Part shown: positions 9,920 through 17,512 of the stretch, in pieces | How the letters are laid out: every line of letters starts with the position of its first letter | Numbering within the stretch: position 1 is the first letter of the stretch | Source: Sporosarcina sp. HYO08 | GTDB lineage: Bacteria; Bacillota; Bacilli; Bacillales_A; Planococcaceae | Direction: 5' to 3' | DNA: 64,000 nt | Assembly (NCBI RefSeq): GCF_001563475.1 | Contig: NZ_LPUT01000027.1 | Span: 62,001 to 126,000 of the forward strand | Program-made: the position numbers and the translations under genes | Notes under the pieces: generated by a model | Seen by the model: only the letters and a program-made list of their open reading frames with translations | Database searches by the model: none | Told to the model about the DNA's origin: nothing

Positions 9920-9957
9920 ATTATTTGATCAAAATATTTCGGATAAGGAAGATCAGT

Positions 9958-11457
9958 ATGAGTAATATGCAAAAACAAACAGACGTTATCTTAATTGGTG
10001 CAGGTGTTATGAGTGCAACTTTGGGAACTTTACTAAAAGAGTTGGCACCTGAATGGAAAATTAAAGTTTTTGAGAAACTTGCAAGTGCTGGGGAAGAAAG
10101 CTCGAATGAATGGAATAATGCAGGAACGGGCCATGCAGCATTGTGCGAACTTAATTACACAGCTGTAAAACCCGATGGCTCTATAGACATCCATAAAGCC
10201 GTCAACATAAATGAGCAGTTTCAAGTTTCTATGCAGTTTTGGTCTTATCTTGTAAACAATAATTTAATCCAAAACCCACGAAATTTTATTATGCCATTGC
10301 CGCATATGAGTTTCGTACAAGGGGAAGAAAATGTATCTTTTTTAAAGAAACGATTTGAAGCGCTAGCCTCTAATCCATTGTTCCGAGGGATGGAGTTTTC
10401 TGATGACCCGGAAAGGTTAAAGGAATGGATCCCGTTAATGATGGAAGGCCGTACATCGAATGAACCAATTGCGGCGACTAATATTGAAACTGGTACGGAC
10501 GTCAACTTTGGTGCGTTAACACGTCTATTGTTCGATAATTTACAGGGCAAGGGTGCTGAACTCAATTACAAGCATACTGTTGAGGATATTAAACGGACAA
10601 GCAATGGTTTATGGGAAGTAAAAGTGCATAATATCGATGAAAATAAAATAGAATACCATACCGCAAAATTTGTATTTATCGGAGGAGGAGGGGCAAGTCT
10701 TCCATTACTCCAAAAAACTGGTATTCCGGAGTCCAAACATATTGGGGGATTCCCAGTGAGTGGACTATTTCTTGTCTGCAACAATCCAGAAGTCGTGGAA
10801 AAACATCATGCGAAAGTGTACGGAAAAGCAAAGGTCGGTGCGCCGCCAATGTCCGTTCCACATCTTGACACAAGATTTATTGACGGTAAAAAATCATTAC
10901 TCTTTGGCCCTTTCGCTGGCTTTTCACCAAAGTTCTTAAAAACGGGTTCGAATTTAGATTTAATCGGCTCTGTTAAATCGGATAACCTTGTGACGATGTT
11001 AGCTGCCGGCGTTAAGGAGATGTCCCTAACGAAATACCTCATTCAGCAAGTGATGCTATCCAATGATAAGCGTATGGAAGAATTACGTGAGTTCATTCCA
11101 AATGCAAAAAATGAAGATTGGGAAATTATCGTAGCGGGACAACGCGTGCAAGTAATTAAAGATACGAATACTGGGAAAGGCACACTTCAATTCGGTACGG
11201 AACTTGTGAGCGCGGCTGACGGTTCGATCGCGGCCTTGCTTGGTGCATCCCCGGGGGCATCCACCGCTGTTTATGTGATGTTGAATTTATTTGAAAAATG
11301 TTTCCCGGAGCATATGAAAGAATGGAAACCAAAACTAATAGAAATGATTCCATCATATGGCTTAAAATTAGCAGAAAACCCGGAGCTTTTAGATAAGGTC
11401 CTTGCTTCGACAGCGGAAGTGCTGGAACTATACAAAGAAGAGGTAGTCCTAAGTTAA
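9958..11457 (+). CDS. mqo: Malate:quinone oxidoreductase Mqo
   Basis: A 499-residue FAD-dependent peripheral membrane enzyme that oxidises L-malate to oxaloacetate and passes electrons to the quinone pool. The N-terminal FAD motif is [34 protein letters not shown] and the C-terminal [16 protein letters not shown] are family signatures. Length is normal. The frame opens at a TTG at 9925, but the ATG at 9958 with GATAAGGA just upstream gives the standard start [11 protein letters not shown] cre site precedes it. It is not in an operon; a relic of its own 3' end sits after queF. Confidence 0.94.
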
Positions 11458-11778: not shown

Positions 11779-11823
11779 AAAAGGCAGTTCCTGCGAATAG
11801 TGTAATAGGGGGCTGTCTTTTTT
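11779..11823 (+). terminator. Hairpin with T-run after the relics
   Basis: AAAAGGCAG at 11779-11787 pairs with CTGTCTTTT at 11813-11821, with a G-U pair. The T-run covers the TTG at 11822 that opens the next reading frame, an argument against that start codon. Confidence 0.6.
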
Positions 11824-11887
11824 GTATCGGTATTTGTTTCCGCCAAAGGACGTTAGTGAATGGATGGTTTTGGCAGGAAAGGAGGAG

Positions 11888-12364
11888 ATGGTTATCAAAA
11901 GTAAAAGTGAGATTATGAAGATCATTCAGCAGTTGGAGCACCATATAGCAGATGATTTTGAGGCGCAGGATTTAGATTTTAAGCAATGGAATTTTACTTC
12001 TAGGGAAGAAAATATTCAAAAAATGATTAAATATGCAGTATGCATGGCAAATGGCGGCGGTGGCAGTGTTGTGTTTGGGGTGGCTGACAACGTTCGGGGG
12101 ATTGATCAGGTGTTGGTAGGCATTCCCTTCGATATAGACATACAGGAACTGGAAAAGCGGGTTTATAGAGAGACGGACCCACCAATTCTTCCCACATTCG
12201 ATGAAATCTTTTATCAAAATCATTCCATCAGGCTGTTAGTCATGAATATTTTCCCAGGTGAACCGCCATACACAGTAAAGAATGGCATCGCGACGATTAG
12301 GACAGGAAAAGAGTGTCTGCCGATTGGATTTATAAAGACTGGCAAGGAGGATTTCAATGAATGA
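11888..12364 (+). CDS. AlbA_2 (Schlafen-type) domain putative DNA/ATP-binding protein
   Basis: A roughly 158-residue protein with DFEAQDLDFKQWN and CMANGGGGSVVFGVAD, the E-x-x-x-x-E/KxW and ANxxGGxxxxGV signatures of the AlbA_2/Schlafen N-terminal domain, also called divergent AAA-4. Such domains bind nucleic acids in regulators and some defence proteins. Here the domain stands alone. The start is uncertain: TTG 11822 lies in a terminator, ATG 11864 has a distant AAAGGA, and ATG 11888 has AAAGGAGG too close. It overlaps the next gene by 8 bases, so the two are coupled. Confidence 0.7.
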   Translation: MVIKSKSEIMKIIQQLEHHIADDFEAQDLDFKQWNFTSREENIQKMIKYAVCMANGGGGSVVFGVADNVRGIDQVLVGIPFDIDIQELEKRVYRETDPPILPTFDEIFYQNHSIRLLVMNIFPGEPPYTVKNGIATIRTGKECLPIGFIKTGKEDFNE

Positions 12365-12769: not shown

Positions 12770-12876
12770 ATTTGTATTCGCGGCGACCACATCGAAAATA
12801 AATTCCCGCAAAATGGGGTAATCGGCCAAGCCATAAACCGAAGGCAGAATAGATTGTAGTTATGGAGGTGTTAACT

Positions 12877-13332
12877 TTGCACAGGTACCAAAGCTGTAAA
12901 AAGAAAGTCGTCGAAATCATCCCAACCATCTCAAATAGAAGAAAGATCATTGCCGAGACAATCGACGAGGTAAGACGTAAAAATAGACCCCCAACACCAG
13001 ATCCAAGGCCGATCGATCCGGTTGATATTACCATTATTCCGACTGTCTATCGTTATTTTTATGTGCCGGCAGCCAATATTAATTTGCAGAGCGGGGCAAC
13101 ACTTCCTGCAACGTTATTTTATTCAGACAATGGAAGTGACATAGAAGAGTTTATCCTTTCCGATCCAAATGGGTACGTCAATTTATACATTAATGGTGTC
13201 ATGCAAGAAGGCGGTTTCTATTCGGTGGATGCCCAGTCTTTAACGCTTATCCCAACTGAAGGCAGGATCCTAGCAGGCACTCCGATCATTATTCAATCAA
13301 TAGGACACACAGCAATTCCCGTTCAACCTTGA
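12877..13332 (+). CDS. DUF4183 domain protein (probable spore-surface protein)
   Basis: A 151-residue protein with a charged N-terminal part, a proline-rich linker (RPPTPDPRPIDP) and a C-terminal DUF4183 domain recognised by YFYVPA, GYVNLYINGVMQEGGFYSVD and GTPIIIQ. DUF4183 proteins of Bacilli are associated with spore coat or exosporium layers. The frame has an ATG at 12862, but that ATG is part of the GGAGGTG site at 12864-12870, which points to the TTG at 12877 as the true start. It is followed by a second DUF4183 gene. Confidence 0.8.
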   Translation: MHRYQSCKKKVVEIIPTISNRRKIIAETIDEVRRKNRPPTPDPRPIDPVDITIIPTVYRYFYVPAANINLQSGATLPATLFYSDNGSDIEEFILSDPNGYVNLYINGVMQEGGFYSVDAQSLTLIPTEGRILAGTPIIIQSIGHTAIPVQP

Positions 13333-13396
13333 ACGAGCCGGTGAACAAAACAGACTGTCATAAAAAAAATGTGGTTAATGAAAGGAGGTGAATAAA

Positions 13397-13717
13397 ATGG
13401 CATTATCGCTTATGAACATTAATGTCAATGTTACAGGTGGTTCGGCAAGGTTTTTCAATGTATTATCGGCAGATTTGGCAGTTGCTAAGGACGTCGCGAT
13501 CTCTGCCGCTGATTTTGTAGATGATATGGGAAATGATATCACTGAATTTCCAGCCGCCACGAACGGTTATTACAACTTCTATATTAACGGTGTTTTGCAG
13601 GAAGATGGCTCGTATAATATTACTACGACCGAACTAACGTTTAACGATGTGACTGGTACATTGACAGCAGGTACACCATTAATTGTCCAGGTTGTATCTC
13701 ACGTTACTACAGTTTAA
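13397..13717 (+). CDS. DUF4183 domain protein, short form
   Basis: A 106-residue protein that is almost entirely a DUF4183 domain: FFNVLSADLAVAKDVAI, GYYNFYINGVLQEDGSYNI and GTPLIVQVVSH align with the preceding protein. It lacks the charged and proline-rich N-terminal part. The ATG at 13397 follows AAAGGAGGTG at 13381-13390; the in-frame GTG at 13388 is part of that site. Tandem copies of different length suggest structural subunits of one layer. A strong terminator follows. Confidence 0.82.
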   Translation: MALSLMNINVNVTGGSARFFNVLSADLAVAKDVAISAADFVDDMGNDITEFPAATNGYYNFYINGVLQEDGSYNITTTELTFNDVTGTLTAGTPLIVQVVSHVTTV

Positions 13718-13740
13718 TCAATGGACAGGCACCCAGGAGG

Positions 13741-13781
13741 AAAATCAGAAGTTCCGCTAGTTGTGGAACTTCTGATTTTTT
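13741..13781 (+). terminator. Terminator of the DUF4183 pair
   Basis: AAAATCAGAAGTTCC at 13741-13755 pairs with GGAACTTCTGATTTT from 13765, ending in a T-run. It lies 18 bases before the first iteron. Confidence 0.9.
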
Positions 13782-13798
13782 GATGAGAAATCCAATAT

Positions 13799-13877
13799 GT
13801 TTACAAAAATGTATACATGTGTACATTAATAGTTGCGTTGTAAACAATAATGTAAACATGCATACAAATACGTACAC
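13799..13877. repeat. Iteron array A (probable distal centromere element)
   Basis: Seven hexamers of the GTNTAC family start at 13799 (GTTTAC), 13811 (GTATAC), 13819 (GTGTAC), 13840 (GTAAAC), 13852 (GTAAAC), 13860 (GCATAC) and 13872 (GTACAC). The start-to-start spacings are 12, 8, 21, 12, 8 and 12 bases. Array B at 14497-14576 has the same spacings with a one-base difference. Regular phasing near 20-21 bases (two helical turns) fits cooperative binding by the RHH protein encoded at 15935-16474. Confidence 0.78.
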
Positions 13878-13892
13878 ATGCAATAGTAGATA

Positions 13893-13951
13893 AAAAAAAG
13901 CACCGGTTACAAAAACAACGCATGCATTATTTTGCTGTCCGGCGCTTTTTT
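13893..13951. terminator. Inverted repeat with T-run after array A
   Basis: AAAAAAAGCACCGG at 13893-13906 pairs with CCGGCGCTTTTTT at 13939-13951 with one mismatch and a loop of about 32 bases. T-runs occur on both strands; on the minus strand it could end transcription of the decayed gene at 14120-14455. Confidence 0.6.
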
Positions 13952-14119
13952 GTGCAGCAAGTTCTCTTAAGAATGTACTATGATCTAAAAGTATTTTTAT
14001 ATTGAATCTGCAAATTTTACAACGAATACATTCCATCTTTTCTTCTGCTGGAAAATGAAAACTATTGCTGTTAAACATAAAATGTTCATTCACTTTCGTT
14101 CATTCACATTTAAATAAAT

Positions 14120-14455
14120 CTACGTTTTTAAGCGTTTGCCACTTTTTCCTGAGAAATATAGATGCAGCTGATCCTGTTTAATTTTGTCATAAAATGGTTG
14201 GAGTCTATCATGTGATTTATGCAGTGGAAAATATTTATTCATTCCAAGAATCGACAATTCTACCAAAACCTCCAAAGTATGTTCGATATCGTCATCGGTA
14301 ACGACGTTTTGCTTTAAAATGACAGGATCATACCAATCCGCGTCATTTCGATTAATATGGACAAATAGTTTGTGCTATTTGACGAAGCGTTTCATTTATT
14401 GAATAATGCTCAACCTGTTTTTGATCGTCCGCGAATCGCCTAACCATTTACCCAT
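14120..14455 (-). pseudogene. Decayed gene between the two iteron arrays
   Basis: On the minus strand an ATG at 14455 opens MGKWLG; after frameshifts the reading continues as DDQKQVEHYSINETLRQIAQ and then, shifted again, as DPVILKQNVVTDDDIEHTLE and onward to SGKSGKRLKT with a TAG at 14122-14120. The last frame is open for more than 80 codons with protein-like composition. I do not recognise the family. At least two frame changes argue for a broken gene rather than a functional one. Its position inside the putative centromere suggests an old member of the same cassette. Confidence 0.55.
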
Positions 14456-14496
14456 TTCCAGCTATATTCCCCAAAGAAACCTTACTGCAAATCCAT

Positions 14497-14576
14497 GTGT
14501 ACAAAAAAGTATACTTGTTTACATCCAAAGAAGAGGTGTACACAAAACCTGTATACAAGTAAACAAAAACGTAAAC
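14497..14576. repeat. Iteron array B (probable proximal centromere element)
   Basis: Hexamers begin at 14497 (GTGTAC), 14509 (GTATAC), 14517 (GTTTAC), 14538 (GTACAC, overlapping GTGTAC at 14536), 14551 (GTATAC), 14559 (GTAAAC) and 14571 (GTAAAC). Spacings are 12, 8, 21, 13, 8 and 12, nearly identical to array A. An additional pair, GTTTAC at 14614 and GTATAC at 14626, is again 12 apart. The array ends about 90 bases before the -35 box of the actin-like gene, the usual place of a parC centromere. Confidence 0.8.
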
Positions 14577-14613
14577 GACCAGTAGTAATCGGCATTTCCG
14601 AAAGAAAGAATAA

Positions 14614-14656
14614 GTTTACGAAAATGTATACTTCATTAAGCTTATGTAACAGTTAC
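14614..14656. promoter_or_regulatory. Extra iteron pair and palindrome next to the parM promoter
   Basis: GTTTAC 14614-14619 and GTATAC 14626-14631 are spaced by 12 like the arrays. GTAACAGTTAC at 14646-14656 is an 11-base palindrome ending 11 bases before the -35 box. These are good candidates for an autoregulatory operator of the cassette. Confidence 0.55.
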
Positions 14657-14666
14657 CTCCGAACGA

Positions 14667-14695
14667 TTGACCTCCAAGGTATATTCCGTTACTAT
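14667..14695 (+). promoter_or_regulatory. Sigma-A promoter of the parM-parR operon
   Basis: TTGACC at 14667-14672 and TACTAT at 14690-14695 with exactly 17 bases between. The predicted start is about 35 bases before the parM ATG. It lies immediately downstream of the iterons. Confidence 0.75.
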
Positions 14696-14735
14696 TTTGA
14701 ATAGACAGAAAAATAATTAAGGGAGGATGAGATTA

Positions 14736-15923
14736 ATGACACAATCACGCATTGCTGCAATTGACGTAGGAAATGATTCATTGAAAGCTATATTTGGAAA
14801 ACTAGAGGCGGAGATCAACATCCCCAACGTAATTGCGTCCGATACAGCAGATCGCCCAATTATCGGCGTAGAAGATTTAGACGATCAAAACCCGCTGGAA
14901 GGGATTCATATTCGTGTCCATTCACCCGCTTTAAAGGATAATAATGCAATTTACCGTGTCGGTCACTTGGCTACAAAAAGTAATAATGCAACAGAACTTG
15001 ACCCAGGCAGTAATAAATCAGAAGAAGATCAAACACTTGTTATGCTATTCGCGTCATTGGCGTTAGATGCGGCTAGGGATGGGAATAAAAAAATCTTTAA
15101 ACGAGCAGGTAATGTGATTGAAGCGAATTACACAGTTGGAACAGGTCTACCGCTTAGGGAAGTAAAGGAAGGTAAAGATGTAGGCTATCGTTCCCGTTTG
15201 CTAGGATCTGTCCATCAAGTGGAATTTTTAGTTACGCCAAAGTACCAAGGCATCAAAGTAAATCTGAAATTTGATGAAGTGAAAGTCTATCCAGAAGGCT
15301 TTGCGGCGTTTATTAACCTTGTGATGGATAATGATTTGAATATCGTTAACAAAGAATTGATCGATAAGCGAATTTTAATCCATGATATTGGTGGACTATC
15401 GACGGATGTGGCGGTCATTAAAAATCGTAAAGTCGATGATGACAAAGCGCAAGGATTCAATTTGGGGGTATCGGAATCACTTGATGAAATTCGCAATGAA
15501 ATTTACTCGCGTTACGGTGTAGAATTGGACAGCCGTAAAGATGTTGTGGAAATTATCACGAAGAAAAATGACCGCAATCATATTATGGTAAAAGGAAGTC
15601 GGACAAGCGTTCACGATATTGTTGATCGAATTTTACTAGATTTGGCCAAAAAGCAGTACCGTCATTTGCGGAATATTTGGCAGCGCAACTCTCAATCGGA
15701 AATTTGCTATTTCATTGGCGGTGGATCGATTGTGCTTAAAGACTATTTAAAGACGTTGAATAATAGCTTGGATGGCTTTAATATCGACTTCTTTGAGGAT
15801 GAAAAAGAGAGTGTCTGGATGATGGCCAATGCTTATTACAAATTAATTTCAGATTTTGCACGAAAAAATGAAAAGCCAAAAGAAGAAAAGCCAAGACAAG
15901 ACAAGCTCGTAAAATCAAAGTAA
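14736..15923 (+). CDS. ParM/StbA family actin-like segregation ATPase
   Basis: A 395-residue actin-fold protein. The phosphate-1 motif AIDVGNDSLKAIFG is at residues 8-21, phosphate-2 HDIGGLSTDVAVI near 215-227 and the adenosine motif YFIGGGSIVL near 324-333. The C-terminal tail (KPKEEKPRQDK) is lysine-rich. Such proteins polymerise with ATP or GTP into filaments that push plasmid copies apart. The ATG at 14736 follows GGGAGG at 14721-14726; an in-frame ATG at 14727 abuts that site. An RHH-like gene follows after 11 bases and iterons precede, giving a complete parC-parM-parR layout. Nothing else plasmid-like, such as rep, is visible. Confidence 0.88.
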   Translation: MTQSRIAAIDVGNDSLKAIFGKLEAEINIPNVIASDTADRPIIGVEDLDDQNPLEGIHIRVHSPALKDNNAIYRVGHLATKSNNATELDPGSNKSEEDQTLVMLFASLALDAARDGNKKIFKRAGNVIEANYTVGTGLPLREVKEGKDVGYRSRLLGSVHQVEFLVTPKYQGIKVNLKFDEVKVYPEGFAAFINLVMDNDLNIVNKELIDKRILIHDIGGLSTDVAVIKNRKVDDDKAQGFNLGVSESLDEIRNEIYSRYGVELDSRKDVVEIITKKNDRNHIMVKGSRTSVHDIVDRILLDLAKKQYRHLRNIWQRNSQSEICYFIGGGSIVLKDYLKTLNNSLDGFNIDFFEDEKESVWMMANAYYKLISDFARKNEKPKEEKPRQDKLVKSK

Positions 15924-15934
15924 GGTGATGCATC

Positions 15935-16474
15935 ATGCGAGAAACGGGATTGAAAAGGGGCCAGCCGATTACGTTTCGTCTACCAGCCGATACGTCTGAC
16001 CATACACTAAGACTGCTCCAAAATTTAAAAGACGTCGAAAGAAGAAACTTTTCCAGTAAAATTGCCGAGTTTGTTATTGATGGGGTCAATGAATCTTCCG
16101 TGAGGTCCAATGAAGTCGTCATGATCCCTCTGCCGAAAGGATTGACGAAGGCACAGCGGGATTGGTTAAAGCATGAGCATTCCGAAGCACTGTTAGGCAG
16201 TATCTTGTATCAGTTACTGGCAGATCCAATGCGCGCAGCCGCTCTTTTCACATCTTTGAATGGTGATACAGTCGATTCAGATCTATACTTTTCGCAGGAA
16301 GTGGCGTCAACTGTCGAGGAAGACCCTAAGCCAAACATTCAGACACCGGTCTCTGATATTGACGATGCATTGGATCACTTCGATTGGAAACAGGTGCAAG
16401 TAGAGCATATGCCAACAGAAGATGAAGAGGAAGAGGATCCGCTCGCAGACTTTTTGGCGCAGATGAATCAGTGA
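15935..16474 (+). CDS. ParR-like DNA-binding adaptor of the actin cassette
   Basis: A 179-residue protein starting with QPITFRLPADTSDHTLRLLQ, a beta strand plus helix pattern like the ribbon-helix-helix fold of ParR adaptors. The middle is helical and the C-terminus very acidic (EDEEEEDPLADFLAQMNQ), as expected for the filament-binding tail. Family membership is inferred from gene order, size and charge pattern rather than from a clear motif match. The start has AAGGTGATG overlapping the parM stop codon. It should bind the upstream iterons and repress the promoter. Confidence 0.72.
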   Translation: MRETGLKRGQPITFRLPADTSDHTLRLLQNLKDVERRNFSSKIAEFVIDGVNESSVRSNEVVMIPLPKGLTKAQRDWLKHEHSEALLGSILYQLLADPMRAAALFTSLNGDTVDSDLYFSQEVASTVEEDPKPNIQTPVSDIDDALDHFDWKQVQVEHMPTEDEEEEDPLADFLAQMNQ

Positions 16475-16480
16475 AATGCG

Positions 16481-16520
16481 AAAGGCACGTGTTCAAGGAA
16501 CATAAACACGTGCCTTTTTT
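16481..16520 (+). terminator. Terminator of the parM-parR operon
   Basis: AAAGGCACGTGTT at 16481-16493 pairs with AACACGTGCCTTT, followed by further T residues. Confidence 0.9.
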
Positions 16521-16571
16521 CGGCGTTGCGCTTATTTGGAATTGGTAGTCAAATAACTTTCTGTACGCCTT

Positions 16572-17411
16572 TTAGTGTTCCAGTTTGAAGTGATTCCTAA
16601 GTAAGTAAGCGGCCCATTTACAATGCGGATGTTTGCGAATATTTTCCAACAGCCCATTCACAAGAGGGGGGCTTAATGTCGGCTCAAGCAATTGTTGCTT
16701 AAGTAATACTAAAGATTCTTTTTCAATAGACGCTTCCATTTCCGCAATATTTTGCTCCAGAATGTCCAAGATTTGTTCCTGCGACGGTTTTTCATTTAAC
16801 GGGTGGTTAAACGATTCACGCATCTCATTTGAAATGAAAGGGATTGTCATATTTTCCGCAAGAATCATTGTTTTTTCAGAAAGGGATCGGGCCAGCAAAT
16901 CCAAATCCAAGGGCAGTTCATAAAAGATAAACAGCTCCGAATACGTTTTCATCAAGCCTTTAATACAATACATCAAATCATATTTTGTCTGTTCAATCTG
17001 ATCTTCGTAAAGCCGTTCCACCATCGAAGAAATTACTTTTTCCATCATCCCGTTGTAATCGTGGAATTTAAGAAAAAGCTCTTCATCGAACGATTGCATC
17101 ATTTCTTTCATAAGAATTTTGGCAAAATCGGAATGCTCATGAAAGGAATGAAATACAGCGTAATAAAAGTTGTATAACAAATCATTCACATTTTTTGTAC
17201 TTTTGACCTCGTAGTCAATGTTCTCTGTAAACTGAATCATAAAATGATCAATCAATGCTACGATCAACGCATCTTTCGACTTAAAGGAGAGGTAGAATGC
17301 ACCTTTGGAAATGCCGCAATGATCTGTGATTTGTTGAATAGACGTCGCCTCAAACCCTTGTTTTGCAAAAAGTTCTACAGCCTTATCCATAATGAGCTGT
17401 TTTTTTTCCAT
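16572..17411 (-). CDS. TetR family repressor next to the RND exporter (YerO-like)
   Basis: A 279-residue regulator with an N-terminal TetR helix-turn-helix: AVELFAKQGFEATSIQQITD, then GISKGAFYLSFKSKD near residues 32-46. The C-terminal half is a helical ligand domain longer than in most TetR proteins. It diverges from the swrC-like exporter, exactly as yerO and swrC (yerP) are arranged in B. subtilis. A perfect TGACC-N4-GGTCA palindrome in the intergenic region is the probable operator for both genes. The inducing ligand is unknown. Confidence 0.85.
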   Translation of the reverse strand: MEKKQLIMDKAVELFAKQGFEATSIQQITDHCGISKGAFYLSFKSKDALIVALIDHFMIQFTENIDYEVKSTKNVNDLLYNFYYAVFHSFHEHSDFAKILMKEMMQSFDEELFLKFHDYNGMMEKVISSMVERLYEDQIEQTKYDLMYCIKGLMKTYSELFIFYELPLDLDLLARSLSEKTMILAENMTIPFISNEMRESFNHPLNEKPSQEQILDILEQNIAEMEASIEKESLVLLKQQLLEPTLSPPLVNGLLENIRKHPHCKWAAYLLRNHFKLEH

Positions 17412-17441
17412 AATTTATGTGATCGCTCCTATGTAATTTCA

Positions 17442-17470
17442 TTGACAATTGACCAGTCGGTCATTAGTAT
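17442..17470 (+). promoter_or_regulatory. swrC promoter with TetR operator in the spacer
   Basis: TTGACA at 17442-17447 and TAGTAT at 17465-17470 have a 17-base spacer. The spacer contains TGACCAGTCGGTCA (17450-17463), a TetR-type palindrome, so repressor binding would exclude RNA polymerase directly. Confidence 0.82.
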
Positions 17471-17512
17471 AAATAACTGAATCTAGTTCGTCAAATAGGG
17501 GAGCGTGTAAGA

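Follow-up and report, generated by a model that had tools for sequence, protein, structure and literature searches.

The window analysed here is a stretch of 64,000 nucleotides from Sporosarcina sp. HYO08 (contig NZ_LPUT01000027.1, positions 62,001 to 126,000), in which two arrays of short hexamers precede a gene for an actin-like ATPase and a small adaptor-like gene. The features of this locus, with the analyses by which they were recognised, are the following:

13739 to 13781, plus strand: T-run hairpin, a probable terminator, between a DUF4183 gene and array 1 (z -7.55)
13799 to 13877, no strand assigned: array 1, a lineage-specific second parC-like array (direct reading; genome-wide triple search)
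14497 to 14576, no strand assigned: array 2, the main, conserved parC-like array (direct reading; triple search; relatives)
14614 to 14631, no strand assigned: third hexamer pair, GTTTAC N6 GTATAC, taken as the downstream end of array 2
14667 to 14695, plus strand: sigma-A-like promoter, TTGACC-17-TACTAT (promoter scan)
14736 to 15923, plus strand: parM-like gene for an actin ATPase of 395 aa (Pfam, PHROG, Foldseek)
15935 to 16474, plus strand: parR-like adaptor gene, 179 aa (alignment of 43 sequences; homologue after parM in 80/80 loci)
16481 to 16517, plus strand: probable parMR terminator (100% complementary inverted repeat; fold z -4.89)

The ParM-like protein contains the Pfam domains Alp7A_like_C (1.2e-30), MreB-like_C and ALP_N and matched a partition protein in PHROG (3.4e-40). 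Its structural model was of low confidence (mean pLDDT 49.7), and the six best Foldseek matches were all ParM/Alp structures, namely B. thuringiensis ParM twice, Alp7A, D. hafniense cParM1, R1 ParM and Alp12; the match to Dh-cParM1 (8x1i) was made with this low-confidence model at 13% identity. Pfam, PHROG and Foldseek all identified the actin-like ParM ATPase that is expected of a type II partition system.

The ParR-like protein matched no family in the Pfam and PHROG searches, its alignment gave no credible match to Pfam and PDB profiles, and its AlphaFold2 model (mean pLDDT 62) gave no useful structural match in Foldseek/VIA. Ribbon-helix-helix (RHH) proteins fold as dimers, so that a weak monomer model says little about the fold. 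A protein search found 1689 relatives, the best 120 of which were listed, and in an alignment of 43 sequences the N-terminal RHH-like segment consists of a strand-like stretch, RGQxITFRxPSD, that precedes two helices, an order also seen in the model. Beyond it are a middle domain that is conserved, an acidic linker that varies, and a strongly conserved C-terminal tail ending in DFLAQMNK. Invariant residues were found in the RHH-like segment and in the C-terminal tail, the sequence of which in the window protein is ...DDLLGDFLAQMNK. The predicted layout is that of known ParR proteins, which are described as binding DNA through an N-terminal RHH domain and ParM through the C-terminal tail (PMC5016525).

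Direct reading of the sequence placed the hexamers of array 1 at 13799, 13811, 13819, 13840, 13852, 13860 and 13872 and those of array 2 at 14497, 14509, 14517, 14538, 14551, 14559 and 14571. All 14 starts given in the original prediction were correct, but its assignment of every site to the GTNTAC family holds except at 13860, where the sequence is GCATAC, one base off; the list also passed over an overlap of GTACAC at 14538 with GTGTAC at 14536, as well as the third pair, GTTTAC at 14614 and GTATAC at 14626 (spacing 12; repeat family D1). Further hexamers past a gap are common in the upstream regions of relatives. The orientation of the hexamers switches within each array, from GTNTAC early to GTANAC late, so that an array is more aptly described as a pair of palindromic blocks, each of four hexamers at offsets of 0, 12, 20 and 32, with the fourth hexamer missing from the first block. 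A relaxed search for such quads recovered the second block alone in both arrays (13840 and 14538).

Both arrays are real and not chance clusters. The region 13718-14735 contains 16 exact sites, whereas 5000 dinucleotide shuffles of it averaged 1.6 and never exceeded 7; none of the shuffles contained the 12-8 triple or more than four sites per 80 bp. With at most one mismatch, the 3.05 Mb genome has four occurrences of the triple GTNTAC-N6-GTNTAC-N2-GTNTAC, one forward and one reverse in each of the two arrays and none elsewhere; with at most two mismatches there were six genome matches, two of them outside the arrays, and 12 for the reversed-pattern control.

In order to place these features among relatives, a scan of GTDB species genomes identified 434 loci coding for a relative, the best 80 of which were kept. 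Nearly all of the 80 are from Bacillales (one is labelled Pseudomonas), and the close chromosomal ParM matches are 77-88% identical to the window protein. In 80/80 of these loci, the best of the 434, parM is directly followed by a ParR homologue and preceded by a cluster of at least three exact hexamers, which indicates that array 2 is a conserved parC-like site. Absence of the spacing pattern at homologous loci had been named as grounds for giving up the proposal of a centromere-like (parC) array with a ParR-like partner; the hexamer cluster was there at every kept locus, and the relatives thus support the proposal, including the conserved spacing. Both the repeat array upstream of parM and the adjoining adaptor gene that characterise such systems were found.

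The spacing was examined in 66 of 81 upstream regions that were kept after removal of near-duplicates, with sites no more than 2 bp apart counted once. These regions contain a mean of 10.7 hexamers, and the commonest spacings between neighbours are 12 (185 occurrences), 8 (136) and 13 (55); a frequent arrangement is 12-8-12-10-12-8-12-24, followed by more sites. Relaxed 12-8-12 quads occurred at a mean of 2.05 per region, in comparison with 0.0 in mononucleotide shuffles, and 3 of the 81 loci had none. Mean phase coherence in the 66 regions peaked at 0.66 at a period of 10.75 bp and was 0.16-0.24 at periods of at most 9.5 and at least 11.5 bp, the other periods being the sole control. The suggestion that selection acts on helical phasing is marginal in the window alone, where random placements reached the phase score in 1082 of 20000 trials for array 1 and 524 of 20000 for array 2, but the spacing classes are strongly conserved across the family. 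In several of the 80 loci, the 18 bp that separate the second hexamer block from the third often carry, by eye, a similar sequence around TTGATATAAAGG, to which another protein may bind.

The array also follows parM from genome to genome. A close ParM (at least 77% identity) is present in 37 of the 261 genomes of the window's family, and the exact triple in 24, comprising 23 of the 37 genomes with a close ParM and one of the 224 without (Fisher p 2.5e-22); 14 of the 37 ParM-positive genomes lacked the exact triple, and the reversed-pattern control gave 0 matches over the same 261 genomes. Thirty of the 31 places with the exact triple are upstream of parM, at a distance of 114-311 bp except for array 1 of the window, at 937 bp. 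Since the triple tracks parM in this manner, its binding partner is most likely encoded in the module, although the 14 ParM-positive genomes that lack the exact triple speak against this. The sole exact triple in a genome without a close ParM (G049:C31:12073-12098) may be due to chance or belong to an unrelated element.

The two arrays in the window had been proposed to form a bipartite centromere. Two arrays are indeed present, but the proposal does not extend to a general feature, as one array beside parM is the common state. Of 17 same-genus loci with 1.5 kb flanks, one, that of the window, has a second cluster, and of the 80 wider loci 8 have one (L054, L059, L061, L067, L080, L082, L098 and L107), some of them probably by shared descent. 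The occurrence of second clusters in several lineages indicates that a bipartite centromere is an optional state. In L080 and L082 the second cluster arose by duplication of parC together with the 5' portion of parM, in which the parM copies are truncated and frameshifted and the hexamers largely retained. No parM remnant was found between the arrays of the window (best E 9.0).

Arrays 1 and 2 are identical at 35 of 42 hexamer positions, 20 of 31 spacer positions, and 15 and 19 of 60 positions in the flanks, and six of the seven hexamer differences are at the two central, freely varying positions of the motif. As the differences are confined mostly to free positions, array 1 appears to be still under selection, in a comparison that is biased by the choice of sites by their motif. 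The ORFs over and after array 1 are only short mechanical ones, and these, together with the strong terminator-like hairpin before the array, make a role as an operator for a neighbouring gene unlikely. Array 1 is probably an extra ParR-loading site, made by duplication and kept by selection, and not an obligatory half of the centromere.

An Rfam search over 13000-17500 gave no match. Directly upstream of array 1 are two adjoining DUF4183 genes (12862-13332 and 13388-13717; Pfam 2.3e-15 and 1.8e-16), for which no counterpart was found in the fetched extent of the other 80 loci. The interval 13960-14490 between the arrays has no long ORF, and its minus strand resembles, by eye, a decayed gene with broken frames. 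Farther upstream, an ORF at 11822-12364 has a Schlafen AlbA_2 domain (Pfam 4.5e-17), and a gene at 9925-11457, by eye a malate:quinone oxidoreductase, is 74-75% identical to a gene located 0.4-2.5 kb upstream of parM in the Pseudalkalibacillus-type loci L094, L095, L099 and L101; it may already have adjoined the module in an ancestor.

In the window genome, dnaA (C27:8919), two ParB-family genes (17676 and 19382) and parM (76736) are located on the same contig, with parM 67 kb from dnaA and both ParB-family genes between them. The module genes parM and parR are thus on the chromosome, and carriage on a low-copy plasmid is at odds with a contig that bears dnaA and ParB-family genes. ParB-type proteins were found in 12 of 12 genomes tested, which indicates that the module is not the sole partition system.

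The position of DnaA (TIGR00362) was determined in 134 genomes that carry parM, of which 37 gave no distance, with dnaA and parM on different contigs. Among the complete or chromosome-scale assemblies, 17 of 17 have parM within 9.5% of the genome from dnaA, about 35-417 kb, and co-directional with replication, to the left of dnaA in 15 and to the right in two. The probability of this outcome under uniform placement is approximately 5e-13 for the 17 chromosomes and 1.7e-6 when these are collapsed to eight groups. In G246, where a ParB match is near the end of the replicon, parM is 53-72 kb from dnaA. Drafts with both genes on one contig (11 of 26, and 29 of a further 50, the latter set being 50 of 66 loci) had the genes 38-263 kb apart, with parM on the left and co-directional, while the other 36 of the 76 drafts gave no distance. 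Drafts with both genes on one contig are biased towards short distances, and further genomes were therefore chosen only by a parM coordinate above 400 kb, a second set consisting of 41 unused genomes among the order-search matches listed. A distance was obtained for 40 of the 41, and all were at most 8.2% of the genome, left of dnaA and co-directional; the wrapped distances in this set are upper bounds, and some replicon lengths, in this set and among the 17 chromosomes, were genome sizes rounded to 0.1 Mb. A small contrast is offered by three matches, ParM-like but distant, in G187 and G205, which were 41%, 7% and 21% of the genome from dnaA.

The 81 loci were grouped into 30 immediate neighbourhoods, defined by at least two shared genes with at least 50% identity on the same side and strand; single-linkage grouping chained 70 of the 81 loci together and was set aside for this stricter two-gene rule. 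Eighteen of the 30 neighbourhoods (20 if two more loci are counted) include a genome with a measured distance, and the neighbours of the module turn over while its origin-proximal place stays. Old synteny of the left arm with local rearrangement may account for part of the origin proximity, and the genomes are not independent. In the Rossellomorea-type loci L033, L036, L037, L039 and L042, and in others, conserved genes that by eye resemble gas-vesicle genes follow the module, about 2.4-5.8 kb from the start of parM.

In a search at the level of the order of a Cytobacillus relative, the module parM was found in 201 of 397 genomes, with one match at E<=1e-100 in each positive genome. The patchy distribution of the module, including its presence in 37 of 261 genomes in the window's family, indicates that it is dispensable in many species.

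Considering these results together, we regard the locus in the window as probably a chromosomal, origin-proximal ParMRC (type II, actin-type) partition module. By the mechanism that we propose, ParR dimers would each bind one hexamer through the ribbon-helix-helix domain, approximately one dimer per helical turn on one face of the DNA, so that the array would be wrapped as a ring or superhelix. ParR would engage the end of a ParM filament through its conserved C-terminal tail, and ParM filaments could push apart or position sister origin regions, alongside the ParABS/Noc-type proteins; ParR probably represses its own promoter as well. Its place close to the replication origin suggests that the module may help to move or hold the chromosome origin and not a plasmid. 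A broader and more tentative proposal, in which we have somewhat less than even confidence, is that many Bacillales chromosomes carry a second, actin-based origin centromere, a phased array served by ParM and ParR that acts beside ParABS/SMC. If this is correct, it would be the first case of a ParMRC whose dedicated task is to segregate chromosomes or to position origins, and the extra arrays in some lineages would strengthen loading. The module has one strong match per genome, extends over many genera that have its DNA site in common, and is near dnaA in every genome measured; it is thus a concrete, testable candidate for a role of ParM in chromosome segregation, and the grammar of its array allows parC sites to be found and mutated.

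The strongest competing possibility, although an unlikely one, is that the arrays are only operators, at which ParR acts as an autorepressor while the actin is unrelated to DNA movement. This would predict an array before parM, as is seen in 80 of 80 kept loci, and in some of eight plasmid relatives, judged by eye, short arrays surround a promoter-like sequence. In the chromosomal loci, however, a promoter-like pair follows the array, which ends a median of 35 bp before the -35 box and does not cover it (63 of 81 loci; no such pair was found in 18). The -35 box in the window is approximately 36 bp past the last hexamer, in a region where ATTGAC columns are conserved in the alignment of the relatives' upstream regions; the promoter scan found 11 promoter-like sites in comparison with 8.9 in shuffles, and a match alone proves nothing. 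Furthermore, the array, with its mean of 10.7 hexamers over the 66 regions, is longer than repression needs, the extra arrays of L080 and L082 persist with no intact parM after them, and an operator has no obvious reason to be near the origin.

It is less probable still that a captured plasmid partition system has been retained as a device against plasmids, by incompatibility or as a decoy, or as a helper of co-resident plasmids. Relatives outside the clade are indeed found on plasmids, with 62 records in the plasmid collection, but all are below 60% identity, the best at 44.7%, as opposed to 77-88% for the close chromosomal matches. In the eight plasmid relatives examined, a small gene directly follows parM, so that the parM-parR order is common to all; seven of the eight gene products match the ParR profile at 1.7e-16 or better, and the eighth only at 9e-5. 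The upstream hexamers differ in several of these plasmids: the sets range from GTATAC-type hexamers at 12-21-12 in one of the eight (L123) to variants, or to none that could be recognised. A decoy, moreover, needs no origin-proximal place.

We consider it very improbable that the module is part of an integrated mobile element (ICE or prophage) that uses ParMRC when excised, a use for which AlpC of prophage CGP3 is a reported precedent (PMC4446434). The patchy distribution and lineage-specific neighbourhoods would fit such an element, but they are accompanied by one strong match per genome in a constant chromosomal region and orientation, and the phage matches are three records, two of them from the same phage, all partial and at most 25% identical; neither close phage relatives nor a variable genomic place was found. 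Finally, that the arrays are chance clusters or the sites of an unrelated regulator is scarcely credible, for although the hexamers are short, AT-rich spacers are common and one exact triple occurs in G049 without a close ParM, the reading as chance is contradicted by the shuffles, the exclusivity within the genome at no more than one mismatch and the co-occurrence with parM across the 261 genomes.

ParMRC systems are textbook plasmid machines. Chromosome-encoded cParCMR cassettes, the role of which was left open, were described by Ali et al. in 2025 (PMC12270681), and the module in the window is accordingly regarded as the chromosomal form of a known system. In that report, palindromic repeats adjoining the cparMR genes of C. 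botulinum are described as bound by ParR, B. tropicus is described as having two cassettes that are said to be conserved in several Bacillus species, no conserved cparC is identified in the Clostridium strains compared, and chromosomal ParMs are stated to be yet to be implicated in chromosome segregation; a search of the main text under the terms oriC, origin and dnaA showed no treatment of where cParM is located relative to oriC (PMC12270681). No published report of an origin-proximal actin-type partition system was found in searches of an open-access library, and as far as these searches show, three things are new: the array grammar common to the loci, the wide occurrence in Bacillales and the location near the origin.

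In comparison with the cParCMR cassettes, the module is alike in having ParM and ParR on the chromosome and palindromic repeats, and differs in an array grammar common to many genera and in its place near the origin. It shares with the plasmid ParMRC systems of R1, pB171 and pSK41 an actin ParM, an adaptor ParR and a repeated parC upstream of parM; the parC sites of these plasmids are described as direct repeats of 11, 10 and 20 bp (PMC9426499), whereas the chromosomal module in the window has quasi-palindromic hexamers in inverted 12-8-12 blocks. The parC of R1 is reported to be split into two blocks around the promoter (PMC5016525), in contrast to the array in the window, which is upstream of the promoter-like sequence and not around it. 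With Alp7A and BtParM of Bacillus plasmids the ParM-like protein shares the Alp7A_like_C domain, and the best Foldseek matches were BtParM (4xhn/4xho) and Alp7A (5ec0), but its identity to those structures is 16-22%, and it belongs to a conserved chromosomal clade with one strong match per genome. The ParABS/parS and Noc systems at the Bacillus origin are similar to the module in being origin-proximal chromosomal binding proteins. ParABS is described as having a ParA-type motor and dispersed parS palindromes (PMC5016525), whereas the module in the window combines an actin motor with one or two clustered arrays.
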